From: Candidatus Thorarchaeota archaeon
GTDB taxonomy: Archaea > Asgardarchaeota > Thorarchaeia > Thorarchaeales > Thorarchaeaceae
Assembly: GCA_021498125.1 (NCBI GenBank)
Contig: JAIZWL010000001.1
Coordinates: 1 to 64,000, forward strand
DNA length: 64,000 nt
Direction: 5' to 3'
In this document: positions 6,187-58,902 of the stretch, one piece after another
Numbering within the stretch: position 1 is the stretch's first letter
Layout: the number at the start of each line of letters is the position of its first letter
Notes under the pieces: model-generated
Told to the model about the DNA's origin: nothing
The model's input: the letters and a program-made list of their open reading frames with translations, nothing else
Databases searched by the model: none
Program-made: the position numbers and the translations under genes

Positions 6187-8909
6187 ATGCTATCTGGACT
6201 CAGTATTAAAAAAATCGATGCCGTTGAGTTCGGACTCCTCTCCCCTGATGACATCCGTAAGATGTCTGTTGCCCAGATCGTCGTTGCCGATACCTACGAC
6301 GAGGACGGCTACAGTATCTCCAGCGGAATCATGGATCCGCGCCTTGGCGTGATTGATCCCGGGCAGCGGTGCCGGACCTGCGGGAATCGTGTTGGCAATT
6401 GTCCCGGTCACTTTGGCCACATCGAGTTGGCCAGACCAGTCATGCACGAGGGCTATGCCAAAGTCATTCACAAAGTCTTGCGTGCCACTTGTCGGCATTG
6501 CAACCGCCTCCTCCTCTCTGAGGACGAGATTGTCGAGTTCGAGCAACTCTTCAAGCGGTATCCCGAGATTGGCGAGCGTACCGCCGTCCTCTCCAAGGAG
6601 ATTCTCAAGCGTGCGGCTAAGGCCAAGAATTGCCCTCACTGCGGCGCCGAACAACTCAAGCTCAAACTGGAGAAGCCCACCTCAATCTATGAGGTCGGTG
6701 AGACCGGTTCAGTTCGGCTTACACCTATCGATATCCGCGAACGATTGGAGAACATCTCCGACCGCGAGTATCGACTCATGGGCATCAATCCCAGTGCAGC
6801 CCGGCTTGAGTGGGCAATATTGACAGTCTTGCCAGTCCCTCCTGTTACTGTCCGTCCATCCATTACTCTTGAGAGCGGGGTTCGATCAGAGGATGATTTA
6901 TCACACAAGGGTTTGTTCAAACAAACATTAATACCATTAAATGTTTGTTAGGTGATTTCCACCTAAACTGTGAACTGATAGACATCATTCGGATCAACCA
7001 ACGCTTAAGGGAGAACTTGGACGCAGGAGCGCCAGCGCTGATCGTAGAGGATCTATGGGAGCTGTTGCAGTACCACGTGACGACGTACTTTGACAATGGC
7101 GTGAGCGGTATACCACCAGCGCGACACCGGAGCGGGCGAGCTCTGAGGACGTTAGCGCAGCGTCTAAAGGGGAAGGAGGGACGGTTCCGATCCAATCTTT
7201 CCGGAAAGCGAGTGGACTTTTCTGCACGGACGGTGATCTCACCAGACCCGAACCTGAGCATGAACGAGGTAGGAGTGCCAGAACAGATAGCAAAGATACT
7301 GACGATACCGCAGCGAGTGACGGAATGGAACATAGAGGAGATGAAAGAGTTAGTGATCCGGGGGCCGGAGAGGCATCCGGGGGCGAACTATCTGATCCGG
7401 ACGGACGGGAGACGAGTGGACCTGAGGTTTGTGAAGGACCGGACGATCATAGCGGACACGATGGAGCCGGGGTTCATAGTGGAGAGGCACCTGGCAGACG
7501 GTGACATAGTCTTGTTCAACCGACAGCCGTCGTTGCACCGGATGTCGATCATGGCACACGAGGTGCGGGTGATGCCGTACCGAACATTTCGATTATCATT
7601 ATACGTATGTCCGCCGTACAATGCAGACTTTGATGGGGACGAGATGAACCTGCACGTACCGCAGTCGGAGGAGGCGCGGGCTGAGGCACGGGTACTGATG
7701 AGAGTGCAGGAGCAGATCCTGTCACCGCGGTACGGTGGTCCGATCATAGGAGCATTACAGGACTACATCTCGGCGGCGTTTTTGTTGACGCGGAAGTCGA
7801 GTCTATACACGCTGGACCGGGTGAACCAGTTGATGGCGGTGACGGAGTTTGCAGGGAAGTTGCCGGAGCCAGCAATCAAGGCGCCAGTGCAGTTATGGAC
7901 TGGGAAGCAGATCTTCAGCATGTTCATCCCAGAGGGGATCAACATCTCGTTCAAGGCGAACATCTGCAAGAAGTGTGATGTCTGCACGAAGGAAGACTGC
8001 GAATACGATGCGTATGTAGTGATTCGCGACGGTAACTTGGAGTTTGGAGTCGTGGATGAGAAGGCCTTTGGGGCCGGAGAGCCTGACTCACTGTTCCATC
8101 GGATCATCAAGGAGAAGGGTCCCACAGCGGCGCGGAAGTTCATGGACTCGGTTGGCCGGCTACTGGTGCGGCTAATCACGGATCGTGGGTTCTCCTTTGG
8201 GCTGGACGACGTGACGCTTCCAAAGGCGGCGTCTGAGCGGATTAAGGTAATACTGAGTGAGGCCGATGAGAAGGTGAACAAACTCATCGAGGCGTACAAA
8301 CGTGGTGAGCTGGACCCGAACCCGGGGCAGACCCTACTGGAGACACTCGAGCAGCGTATCATGGCGGTTCTTGCAAAGGCGCGAGACTCGGCCGGAGAGG
8401 TTGCAGGAGAGCACCTTGGGTTGGAGAACTCGGCTGTGATCATGGCACAGACTGGAGCGAGAGGCTCACGACTGAACCTCTCACAGATGGCTGCAGTCGT
8501 AGGGCAGCAGGCCGTACGAGGCGAGCGAATCAAACGTGGATACAAGGGGCGGACCCTGCCGCACTTTGAGAAGGGTGATCTTGGAGCCCGAGCACGAGGC
8601 TTTGTGACCTCGAGTTACAAGAGTGGACTTGATCCAATAGAATACTGGTTCCACGCAGCAGGAGGGCGAGAGGGCCTTGTGGACACAGCAGTACGAACAA
8701 GCACCTCCGGATACATGCAGCGACGGCTGATGACCGCACTGCAAGACCTGAAGGTGGAATCAGATGGCACGGTACGGACCGCCAGCGGGCGAGTTGTACA
8801 GTTCAAGTTTGGAGATGATGGAGTGGACCCGAGTAAGTCTGACCATGGTCGGGCTGTCAATATTGATATTGCCATCGAGAAAGTGCTCGGTAAGAGCAGG
8901 ATCAAGTAA
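6187..8909 (+). CDS. rpoA1: RNA polymerase subunit A', interrupted by a 65-nt intron (join 6187-6909, 6975-8909)
   Basis: The catalytic largest subunit, N-terminal two thirds. Read straight through, the frame stops at 6951 after 254 codons, and the rest of the protein continues in another frame. Joining 6187-6909 to 6975-8909 gives 885 residues, the usual A' length, and restores EDDLSHK-LIDIIRINQRL, which matches the family consensus. Zinc-binding Cys/His clusters lie near residues 62-80 and 101-152. The magnesium-binding active-site motif NADFDGD is near spliced residue 456. Exon 2 uses mostly purine-ending synonymous codons, unlike exon 1, rpoB and rpoA2. The only alternatives are an assembly artefact or a nonfunctional copy, and both fit poorly with the exact intron structure. 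Confidence 0.93.
6910..6974 (+). other. Archaeal-type intron in rpoA1 with a canonical bulge-helix-bulge
   Basis: Exonic 6897-6903 (TTTATCA) pairs with 6976-6982 (TGATAGA), 7 bp including one U-G. Central helix 6904-6907 (CACA) pairs with 6969-6972 (TGTG), exactly 4 bp. The 5' bulge is 6908-6910 (AGG), the 3' bulge 6973-6975 (AAC). The inner helix is 6911-6914 (GTTT) with 6965-6968 (AAAC). Cleavage after the second base of each 3-nt bulge, the rule for the archaeal tRNA-splicing endonuclease, removes exactly 6910-6974. Homology to A' independently predicts the same boundaries. Inside, 6920-6929/6940-6949 and 6948-6954/6960-6966 form alternative hairpins. Retention introduces a stop. It encodes no endonuclease. 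Confidence 0.9.
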
Positions 8910-13572: not shown

Positions 13573-13889
13573 GTGCAGCGGCCCCGCGGCCTCGGACGTC
13601 CTTCCCCCCGGCGCGGATCTCGCACCATTCTCGAAGCGGCTACCTCTGAGGCTCCACTACTCTTCCTTAGGGCTGTTCCCGCCAGGGCCTGACCCGGTTC
13701 GGAAGTCTAAGCCAATCCCGGCAGTCCTACGACTACCGCTATGACCGTAGCAGACTTCAGAGACCGCTCGTCATAGTCCGGTACGAGGGCACACGGGAGT
13801 CCGGTTTCGCCCTCGGCGTTGGTTACTGGTCCCGGCTATTGCCATACCGGTCACAGGTCGCGGCAAACGACCCGACCCTACCCGCTGCA
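13573..13889 (-). ncRNA. Signal recognition particle RNA (7S)
   Basis: About 317 nt on the minus strand. The ends pair (GCAGCGG at 13882-13888 with CCGCTGC at 13575-13581), forming helix 1 as in archaeal SRP RNA. The conserved helix 8 segment GGGTCAGGCCC...GGGAACAGCC at 13671-13695 is the SRP54-binding site, followed by GAGTAGTGG as in eukaryotic 7SL. The region is GC-rich compared with its flanks. The helix 8 apical tetraloop reads TGGC rather than the usual GNRA type. Exact ends are approximate. Confidence 0.88.
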
Positions 13890-14226: not shown

Positions 14227-14628
14227 ATGAACGCGGAATCGGGAGGCCCTGCAAAGCGCGATTGGCGCGTCACATGGACTAAGATCTTTGTTATTATCTT
14301 CATGACCGCTCTCGCACTACTTGGTGCATCGCACCCTGGCTCTGATTCCTATACCTCATTCACACTTCCTGCTATGATTATTCCCGGCTTCTTGCTTGTC
14401 ATCATGATCTGTCTTTCAAGGAAGCACAGTCGGTCAGTTGATCTTGCAGAGGATGAGGCGATCTTTGCGATTCTGGAAAAGCATGCCGCCCCTGCATTGA
14501 GAGTGGAAGGTACTGATTTCTACCGATGCCCCTCTTGTGACATGACCTTTGACATTATCAATGCAGTTCAACAGGAAGAGAACGTCTATTTGTGTCCCTT
14601 TTGTGGCGTTCGGCTCTTTATCGAATGA
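14227..14628 (+). CDS. Membrane protein with C-terminal zinc ribbon
   Basis: A 133-residue protein with two predicted membrane segments (about residues 18-34 and 45-61) and a cytosolic C-terminal CPSCDMTFDI...CPFCGVRLF zinc ribbon. The combination of helices plus a CxxC-CxxC ribbon is common among uncharacterised archaeal membrane proteins. No specific function can be assigned. It lies between a smaller membrane protein and EF-1A. Confidence 0.6.
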   Translation: MNAESGGPAKRDWRVTWTKIFVIIFMTALALLGASHPGSDSYTSFTLPAMIIPGFLLVIMICLSRKHSRSVDLAEDEAIFAILEKHAAPALRVEGTDFYRCPSCDMTFDIINAVQQEENVYLCPFCGVRLFIE

Positions 14629-14697
14629 GCGCTTGCTATCCGTTCCGGTAGAGGAATGCCATCACGCAGTGTGTCTTGAAGACAATGTACTTTGTCG

Positions 14698-14713
14698 AAA
14701 GCGTTAAAAGCAA
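14698..14713 (+). promoter_or_regulatory. Probable BRE/TATA element of the EF-1A gene
   Basis: GAAAGCGTTAAAAGCA lies about 75 bases before the EF-1A start. The purine-rich BRE-like left half and TTAAAA core fit an archaeal promoter. Confidence 0.55.
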
Positions 14714-14784
14714 CCCCCGAAGTGAAGGGCAGAGTCTGTCCTGTATAGAGGACCGACTAAAAACGCGAAAGGAGAATTAATGCC

Positions 14785-16092
14785 TTGTCCAAGAAAGAAA
14801 AGGAGCACCTGAACCTCGTCGTCATTGGCCATGTTGACCATGGTAAAAGCACGATGACTGGCCGGCTCCTATATGAAACAGGCGCTGTTGATGAACGAAC
14901 GTTCCAACAGTACAAGGCCGAAGCAGAGAAACTTGGGCGGCCCAGCTGGGCATGGGCTTTTGCGCTGGACCGTCTCAAGGAAGAACGTGAACGTGGTCTT
15001 ACAATTGACATTGCGTTCTTCAAGTTCATGACTGACCGCTACTACTATACCATTATTGACGCACCCGGCCATAAAGACTTCATCAAGAACATGATCACAG
15101 GTGCGTCCCAAGCCGACGTAGGATTGTTGGTCGTGTCGGCTAAGAAAGGTGAGTTCGAGGCTGGAATAGGTCCCGGTGGTCAGACAAAGGAACATGCGTA
15201 TCTTGCCATGACCCTTGGTGTGCCCAGTTTGATCGTCTGTATCAATAAGATGGACGATGATAGCGTCAAGTACAGCGAGGACCGCTACAAAGAGGTCAAG
15301 GAAGAGGTAGAGGGATTCCTGAAGAGCATCGGTTACAAGACCGATAAGATCCCATTCATCCCCACTTCTGCCCTCGATGCTGCCAACCTGAGCAAGAAGA
15401 CCCCCGACCTGACCCCATGGTATGATGGACCCTGCTTGCTTGAGGCTCTAGACGCTGTCGAGCTTCCACCCAAACCAGTTGACAAGCCCTTGCGCGTGCC
15501 AATCAATGATGTATACTCTATCAAGGGTGTTGGTACCGTGCCAGTCGGTCGTGTCGAGACTGGTGTCATGAAGCCTGGGATGAAAGTCATCTTCATGCCT
15601 CCGAACAAGACTGGTGAGATTAAGTCAATCGAGATGCACCATGAGCAGTTGCCTCAGGCAATTCCTGGTGATAACATCGGTTTCAATGTGCGTGGTATCG
15701 AACGTAAGGATCTAGGACGTGGCGACGTTGCTGGTCCTGTTGATTCCGCCCCCACAGTTGCAGCCGACTTTACAGGGCAGGTCATGGTCATTCAGCACCC
15801 AACTGCAATCACTGTTGGTTACACTCCAGTCATCCATGCACACACTGCACAGGTTGCCTGTAGATTCGATCAGCTCCTGAAGAAACTTGACCAACGAAGC
15901 GGCCAAGTCATTGAGGAGAACCCCGACTTTGTGAAGAAGGGTGAGTCCATGTTGGCAAAACTTGTACCCCTCAAGCCAATGGTCATTGAGAAGTACAAGG
16001 AGTTCCCACAGCTCGGACGATTTGCAGTACGTGACATGGGAATGACCGTTGCAGTCGGTGTCGTTCTCGATATCACTCCACGTGCCAAATAA
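14785..16092 (+). CDS. tuf: Translation elongation factor 1-alpha
   Basis: The GTPase that delivers aminoacyl-tRNA to the ribosome, 435 residues. G1 GHVDHGKST is at residues 15-23, G3 DAPGHKD near 92, and G4 NKMD near 154, followed by two beta-barrel domains. It starts at TTG 14785, ten bases after GGAG; the ATG at 14780 is out of frame. S7 and S10 usually flank it in archaea. Here S7 is upstream across a 2.5 kb interruption and S10 is absent. Confidence 0.97.
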   Translation: MSKKEKEHLNLVVIGHVDHGKSTMTGRLLYETGAVDERTFQQYKAEAEKLGRPSWAWAFALDRLKEERERGLTIDIAFFKFMTDRYYYTIIDAPGHKDFIKNMITGASQADVGLLVVSAKKGEFEAGIGPGGQTKEHAYLAMTLGVPSLIVCINKMDDDSVKYSEDRYKEVKEEVEGFLKSIGYKTDKIPFIPTSALDAANLSKKTPDLTPWYDGPCLLEALDAVELPPKPVDKPLRVPINDVYSIKGVGTVPVGRVETGVMKPGMKVIFMPPNKTGEIKSIEMHHEQLPQAIPGDNIGFNVRGIERKDLGRGDVAGPVDSAPTVAADFTGQVMVIQHPTAITVGYTPVIHAHTAQVACRFDQLLKKLDQRSGQVIEENPDFVKKGESMLAKLVPLKPMVIEKYKEFPQLGRFAVRDMGMTVAVGVVLDITPRAK

Positions 16093-58765: not shown

Positions 58766-58902
58766 GGGCTCGTGGCTAAGCCAGGTATAGACATCTCGCC
58801 TTGTGCGAAGGTCACCTACAGCGACAGGCTCTTAACTTGTATGTCCGCTCACTTCGACGGACAGAGGTCTGGTCGCGGGTTCAAATCCCGCCGAGCCCGC
58901 CA
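58766..58902 (+). tRNA. tRNA-Lys(CTT) with two introns, CCA encoded
   Basis: Acceptor GGGCTCG/CGAGCCC, T arm GCGGG-TTCAAAT-CCCGC, anticodon stem ACAGG/CTTGT around CTCTTAA (anticodon CTT), discriminator G and CCA are present. A 31-nt insertion interrupts the D stem 3' strand near 24/25 (GCTA...TAG|...|C). About 29 nt, ATGTCCG...GAGGTC with a GTCCG/CGGAC hairpin, separates position 43 from the TGGTC variable loop. The second insertion starts with the same bases and lies at the same place as in tRNA-Lys(TTT). Confidence 0.87.

Follow-up and report, generated by a model that had tools for sequence, protein, structure and literature searches.

How does a gene for a catalytic RNA polymerase subunit come to have its reading frame broken inside a conserved motif? 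The window analysed here, a stretch of 64,000 nt from a thorarchaeal genome of 3.11 Mb in 14 contigs (G000), holds the gene order rpoB-rpoA1-rpoA2-L30e-nusA-S12-S7, plus EF1A, most of these names being assigned by recognition, and its rpoA1 frame is interrupted at 6909/6910 (+), inside the motif DDLSHK-LIDIIRINQRL. Excision of 65 nt restores this motif exactly, and the flanking segments, once joined, form an unbroken frame of 885 codons with a terminal stop, encoding an 885-aa RNA polymerase A' subunit (Table 1). The joined product scores 1402.9 bits against the RpoA1 model TIGR02390 over residues 8-872 (cut-off 1042.55), compared with 347.4 bits for the truncated product, and the open reading frame present without excision (6187-6951) encodes 254 aa. 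A preliminary description had proposed the break in the motif, its exact repair by removal of these 65 nt and an unspliced product of 254 residues, and all three are borne out. It had also named a second intact rpoA1 elsewhere as grounds for rejecting its reading; such a copy was looked for in the genome and none was found, rpoA1 being matched once. We conclude, with a probability of roughly 90%, that these 65 bases form an archaeal pre-mRNA intron of the bulge-helix-bulge (BHB) class, removed by the tRNA-splicing machinery and of a kind that recurs in Thor- and Lokiarchaea.

Table 1 The rpoA1 locus of the window and putative introns of related genomes; a caret marks the point of insertion.
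Feature	Genome	Positions	Strand	Size	Basis or site
rpoA1 (A') exon 1	G000	6187..6909	+	241 codons	Frame, TIGR02390 match
Putative BHB intron	G000	6910..6974	+	65 nt	Frame restoration and BHB register
rpoA1 exon 2	G000	6975..8909	+	644 codons and stop	Frame, TIGR02390 match
Exon helix, 5' strand	G000	6897..6903	+		Pairs with 6976-6982
Central helix, 5' strand (CACA)	G000	6904..6907	+	4 bp	Pairs with 6969-6972
5' bulge AGG, predicted cut 6909/6910	G000	6908..6910	+		BHB rule
Inner helix, 5' strand	G000	6911..6915	+		Pairs with 6964-6968
Intron hairpin 1	G000	6920..6949	+	10-bp stem	Folding
Intron hairpin 2, AUUUC loop	G000	6948..6966	+	Stem of at most 7 bp	Loop motif recurs in related introns
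Inner helix, 3' strand	G000	6964..6968	+		Pairs with 6911-6915
Central helix, 3' strand (UGUG)	G000	6969..6972	+		Pairs with 6904-6907
3' bulge AAC, predicted cut 6974/6975	G000	6973..6975	+		BHB rule
Exon helix, 3' strand	G000	6976..6982	+		Pairs with 6897-6903
rpoA1 intron	G020			31 nt	
rpoA1 intron	G031			30 nt	
rpoA1 introns	G148, G169, G101, G112			30 nt each	GHFGH^IEL
rpoA1 intron	G163			50 nt	Slightly downstream of GHFGH^IEL
rpoA1 second intron	G112			35 nt	Slightly downstream of GHFGH^IEL
rpoA1 intron	G159			30 nt	TYDEDG
rpoA1 second intron	G101			31 nt	TYDEDG
rpoA2 introns, one base apart	G009, G019			30 nt	TLRT^FHYAG
rpoB intron	G161			31 nt	
rpoB introns	G056, G106			32 nt	
IF5B intron	G161			30 nt	P-loop GHIDHG^KT

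The substrate of the archaeal splicing endonuclease has a 3-nt bulge on either side of a 4-bp helix, and each bulge is cut after its second base; the RNA around the break can adopt this arrangement. All seven positions of the exon helix pair (one G-U), as do all four of the central helix, followed by an inner helix of five pairs (one G-U); two 3-nt bulges with a 4-bp helix between them and helices on either side are therefore present, and the canonical motif previously described holds, with these G-U pairs counted. Cuts after the second base of both bulges delimit the same 65 nt as the frame repair, as had been claimed; the predicted cuts coincide with the exon borders, and this register is the best among the motif-restoring registers listed. 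Hairpin 2 overlaps hairpin 1 and the inner helix by its outer 2 bp, so the three cannot all form simultaneously. BHB-like motifs are common by chance, with 34 (outer helix at least 6, inner at least 4) over the whole window, both strands counted, and the weight of the argument thus lies on the register, not on the motif. Within 6301-7600 on the + strand there is a single BHB (outer at least 5, inner at least 4, intron 20-200), the one that restores the frame, and the probability of 16 pairs arising at one fixed register is ~1.6e-7. Folding by itself is no proof, because the enforced BHB fold (-25.1 kcal/mol) lies 1.1 kcal/mol above the minimum free energy (-26.2 kcal/mol) and is near-optimal but not optimal; pair probabilities in the central helix are 0.29-0.43, and the 106-nt fold around the intron has z = -2.29. 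The exon helix is fully paired here (7/7) versus at most 5/7 in 30 family loci without an rpoA1 intron at this site, and from this comparison the exon flanks seem adapted to the intron.

The enzymes that such splicing would use are encoded in the same genome. Two EndA-family genes are present. The first has 3p1z as its nearest crystal chain (E 1.6e-42) and retains the aligned Tyr, His and Lys, which we take to have active-site roles in 3p1z-like EndA; the second is without His at the aligned position, and a pair of this kind fits an (alpha-beta)2 enzyme. RtcB, examined in this genome only, is also encoded. Of 30 tRNA matches listed, ten have lengths of 95-139 nt; one tRNA has a 31-nt canonical BHB intron, and others likely contain noncanonical introns, judged by reading. 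The structure of the locus, its frame, the co-adapted exons and the genes for the enzymes can all be read from the sequence. In the proposed route, the rpoA1 transcript would fold so that exon and intron bases pair over 4 bp with a 3-nt bulge at each end, EndA alpha and beta, the two subunits of the tRNA-splicing endonuclease, would cut each bulge after its second base, and RtcB would ligate the exons to give the 885-aa A' subunit. We infer cutting by EndA, joining by RtcB and the need for splicing, and with these a dependence of RNA polymerase synthesis on splicing.

Two further tRNA genes in the window, at 2542-2644 and 58766-58899, were matched by Rfam and missed by ARAGORN; they look like tRNA-Lys genes with introns off the usual position, the second perhaps with two. 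An archaeal SRP RNA lies at 13576-13887 (-).

The closest labelled relatives of this genome belong to the Thorarchaeota. Comparison across related genomes, which the preliminary description had proposed, indicates that the intron is probably young, since three congeners (G001, G002 and G003; 95-96% identity) have an unbroken A' with no insert at the site. Genomes with a match numbered 140 of 149, own included, and among the matches listed only that of the window's genome is split there. Codon differences from G003 are 114 synonymous to 7 nonsynonymous in exon 1 and 304 to 25 in exon 2, and by these counts both exons are under purifying change. Third-base composition shifts abruptly close to the intron (C39/T25 in exon 1; G50/T8 in the first 310 codons of exon 2), with a change-point log-likelihood ratio over 6187-8909 of 31.8 at -13 codons from the intron (permutation maximum 9.7). 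A fainter shift, almost at the corresponding point (12.5 at -9), is present in intron-less G003, and the change in composition may therefore be older than the intron. Import of exon 2 from outside was considered as the main account of the codon shift and rejected, G003 being the nearest of 15 relatives in most bins of both exons.

The window's intron belongs to a larger set. Sixteen more frame-breaking inserts were found in rpoA1, rpoA2, rpoB and IF5B of 13 other Thor- and Lokiarchaeal genomes, and in every case excision at a BHB register repairs the protein motif; the total is thus 17 putative introns at 10 sites in four genes of 14 genomes; these genomes fall into two families of one phylum, as grouped by the analysis tool, and each of the 14 has two EndA-family matches. 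Borders were placed by hand for G112, G163 and the three rpoB introns, and where several motif-restoring registers were possible the best-pairing one was taken. The earlier proposal of a protein-coding BHB intron in rpoA1 stands, with the refinement that the intron is no singleton but one member of a recurrent set in Asgard RNA polymerase and IF5B genes. For rpoA1, 199 genomes were searched and 184 gave a match, many of these matches being partial; at least nine of the 184 have introns. The 47 Thor genomes searched yielded rpoA2 introns in two and none in rpoB or the PolD large subunit, and a Loki-centred set (57 of 60 genomes matched) yielded rpoB introns in three and none in rpoA2. Among the matches listed, IF5B, Lhr helicase and TopA showed no introns in 27 Thor genomes, and a search of IF5B and PolD in 58 Loki-centred genomes gave an IF5B intron in at least one. 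Reading served to set aside stops judged to lie past gene ends, contig breaks, inteins and single-base changes, and some of these cases were checked on the sequence; also uncounted were a one-base shift in PolD of G156, fragmented or shortened PolD and IF5B genes in G024 (77% complete), and insert-less internal stops in rpoA1 of G014 and rpoB of G009 and G163. Fifty-seven of 80 rpoA1 loci carried no Asgard label (at most 68% identity) and none had a stop or split in rpoA1, a control that is soft because the collection is biased to well-aligned genes. High conservation at the insertion sites has weak support (p ~0.04, five rpoA1 sites).

Several of these genes have other peculiarities. The insert-less single stops replace a conserved Trp with TAG in G014 rpoA1 (L024) and a Ser with TAA in G009 rpoB (L192/L075), and G163 rpoB (L200) has one such stop in an otherwise intact gene. 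The two rpoA1 introns of G112 (L174) are four bases apart, and the second centre helix has 4/4 pairs with the first intron out and 3/4 before (by hand), which hints that the two were inserted, or are spliced, in a particular order; the stricter idea that this helix forms only after removal of intron 1 was dropped, 3/4 pairs being available already. In G019 (L177), a partial second rpoA2 lies at about 7168-7425, just after rpoA1, and the full intron-bearing rpoA2 is at 14241-15425, about 7 kb downstream. Long open-frame inserts near residue 455 of A' in G050, G067, G103, G130, G131, G169 and G170 are probably inteins at the catalytic motif, and G169 has both this insert and a micro-intron in rpoA1.

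The introns have a common plan, in which four exon bases pair with four intron bases, a bulge NN^N follows, then a stem-loop and usually AA^N; 14 of 17 are 30-32 nt long (lengths overall 30, 31, 32, 35, 50 and 65 nt). Centre pairs number 59 of 64 over 16 introns, whereas exchanging introns between sites gives 31 on average and 50 at most, and the IF5B intron of G161 has 4/4; five of the 17 have 3/4. Since the best register had been chosen, the test was repeated with six registers allowed and one intron per site, and the resulting 37 of 40 pairs were not reached in 100000 draws (pair chance 0.376). Nine relatives' introns with a scored best register have 0-2 adjacent exon-helix pairs and are thus relaxed motifs, whereas the window intron is of the strict form. 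Nine 30-nt introns align without gaps, with 88.0% of cells paired versus 54.6% when shuffled and a covariation score of 0.959 versus 0.277 ± 0.052 shuffled (0/500) and at most 0.216 slid; 12 of 13 pairs have changed on both sides (reached by 5/500 shuffles), and RNAalifold unaided recovered 12 of 13. This alignment was stacked by assumed register and its members are non-independent (G009/G019; four at one site). The covariation supports the structure of these nine related introns; the 65-nt intron, at a unique site, is outside that set, and R1, a covariance model of the 30-nt class, does not match it. An AUUUC loop is found in 10 of 17 introns (six of 10 sites, three genes, two families), this 5-mer making up ~0.12% of those on the window's + strand, and 15 of 16 introns, plus that of IF5B, end in AA, to which register choice may contribute. 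A model of EndA cutting and RtcB joining accounts neither for the uniform length nor for the AUUUC loop; both may stem from shared ancestry or from movement.

An alternative interpretation is translational bypass, as in T4 gene 60 and the byp elements of yeast mitochondria, with ribosomes hopping over the hairpin insert. Short hairpin inserts, several with in-frame stops, would suit such a process, but we consider it very improbable because take-off and landing codons, whose match is the hallmark of bypass, differ in the two cases read (AAG versus GAA in G000; CAT versus TAA in G148), because the spread of lengths from 30 to 65 nt is incompatible with a fixed hop, and because covariation of 5' exon bases with 3' intron bases is a prediction of BHB splicing and not of bypass. 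We give a similarly small chance to true introns that are removed by a different enzyme or by self-splicing: the AUUUC loops, which EndA recognition leaves unaccounted for, speak in favour, but the cut sites fit EndA geometry and, at gathering scores, Rfam found no intron family and no group I or II RNA in the window. A group I or group II intron was specifically rejected, given the lack of a catalytic-core family at gathering score and an insert of only 65 nt, as was an intein, the insert having an in-frame stop and not being an in-frame protein insert.

Slightly less credible still is an assembly error or a dead gene. The exact insert occurs in one assembly only, and relatives' polymerase genes do contain the isolated substitution stops noted above; however, the gene is essential and no other copy was found, conservation of exon 2 extends over its 644 codons, and 16 similar inserts with covarying structure come from 13 other assemblies. 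A split gene, with A' produced in two pieces and translation of the second initiated at TTG 6945 within the insert, finds some encouragement in the frame shared by this TTG and exon 2 and in the split archaeal RNA polymerase subunits of other lineages, but is hardly tenable, since the break lies within a motif contiguous in 30 family loci, the BHB register would be a coincidence, and in G148 and G169 the final in-frame stop abuts the resumed motif and leaves no space for a start. Removal of a BHB intron by the tRNA-splicing endonuclease, as originally suggested, is instead supported jointly by register, exon co-adaptation, enzyme genes, the failure to find another rpoA1, intron-less congeners and independent introns of like design in relatives.

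Searches for copies of the 65-nt intron in its own genome and 43 relatives returned only weak matches beyond itself (best E 0.003), and three 20-mer matches in viral contigs were seen. A blind scan covered 464 kb of G000 and 228 kb of G161; many of its joins were false, and reading them revealed no clear case beyond rpoA1. It missed the IF5B intron of G161, where it reported only a gene-end join, and a looser trial scan on 20 kb was noisier. Model R1, which is limited to the 30-nt class, had 0 matches at E<=2 both in the 464 kb of G000 and in 90 loci taken as free of that class. Run over four Loki genomes (665 kb), it returned the two known introns and six weaker matches; none of the six joins a frame that stays open beyond 25 codons in both directions. 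A bolder interpretation, which we offer tentatively and at rather less than even odds, is that a spreading Asgard family of ~30-nt BHB micro-introns (9-bp stem, often an AUUUC pentaloop, 3' AA) repeatedly enters core genes of transcription and translation and makes RNA polymerase dependent on tRNA splicing, with some activity, suggested by the AUUUC loop, moving or tagging the introns.

If true, the 17 putative introns in RNA polymerase and initiation-factor genes would suggest that mRNA splicing by the tRNA enzyme originated repeatedly in Asgard archaea, the group nearest to eukaryotes, and would couple the transcription machinery's expression to tRNA splicing. Apparently recent gains together with intron-less sister genomes form a set for testing intron birth, and essential genes in these genomes may be miscalled as frameshifted in annotation.

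The cbf5 pre-mRNA intron of Crenarchaea, reportedly described by Watanabe in 2002, is the closest known counterpart. The accessible portions of Yokobori 2009 (PMC2738675) describe it as a protein-coding BHB intron cut between the second and third bulge residues by hetero-oligomeric EndA, with gain and loss and a variable interior, and tie relaxed mRNA BHBs to the hetero-oligomeric enzyme; they also mention putative introns predicted in other archaeal protein genes, unconfirmed and including 12-bp ones in a virus, which are likewise short. By 2020, one additional BHB intron had been reported, in cbf5 mRNA, according to the available text of PMC7714728. In the open PMC literature, as far as its accessible text goes and with subscription journals and preprints largely outside it, we found no report of Asgard protein-coding BHB introns or of a BHB intron in an RNA polymerase gene, consistent with the initial remark that none was known in a catalytic subunit; the confirmed cases of pre-mRNA introns in archaeal coding sequences that we found in print are all in cbf5. 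Introns occur in 92-95% of tRNA genes in three Asgard genomes, as stated in the part of PMC11291895 seen. The HVO_1309 BHB of Haloferax is likewise an mRNA substrate of the splicing endonuclease, but it is in a 5' UTR and leaves the coding frame uninterrupted, unlike the rpoA1 intron (PMC7714728, accessible text). Archaeal pre-tRNA BHB introns, present in the window's genome, share the motif, the cut rule and the presumed enzymes, whereas the Asgard cases are in mRNA, within coding motifs. Descent within the cbf5 intron lineage was rejected, the gene being rpoA1. The likeness to cbf5 is in a coding-sequence BHB intron, the same cut position, EndA, gain and loss and a variable interior; the differences are another gene and another phylum, and one site, in the accessible text of PMC2738675, compared with 10 sites in four genes here. 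Splicing of cbf5 was demonstrated with cDNA, whereas the Asgard introns are known from their sequences, and the 30-nt stem-loop design with its AUUUC loop is a feature of the Asgard introns and not of cbf5.
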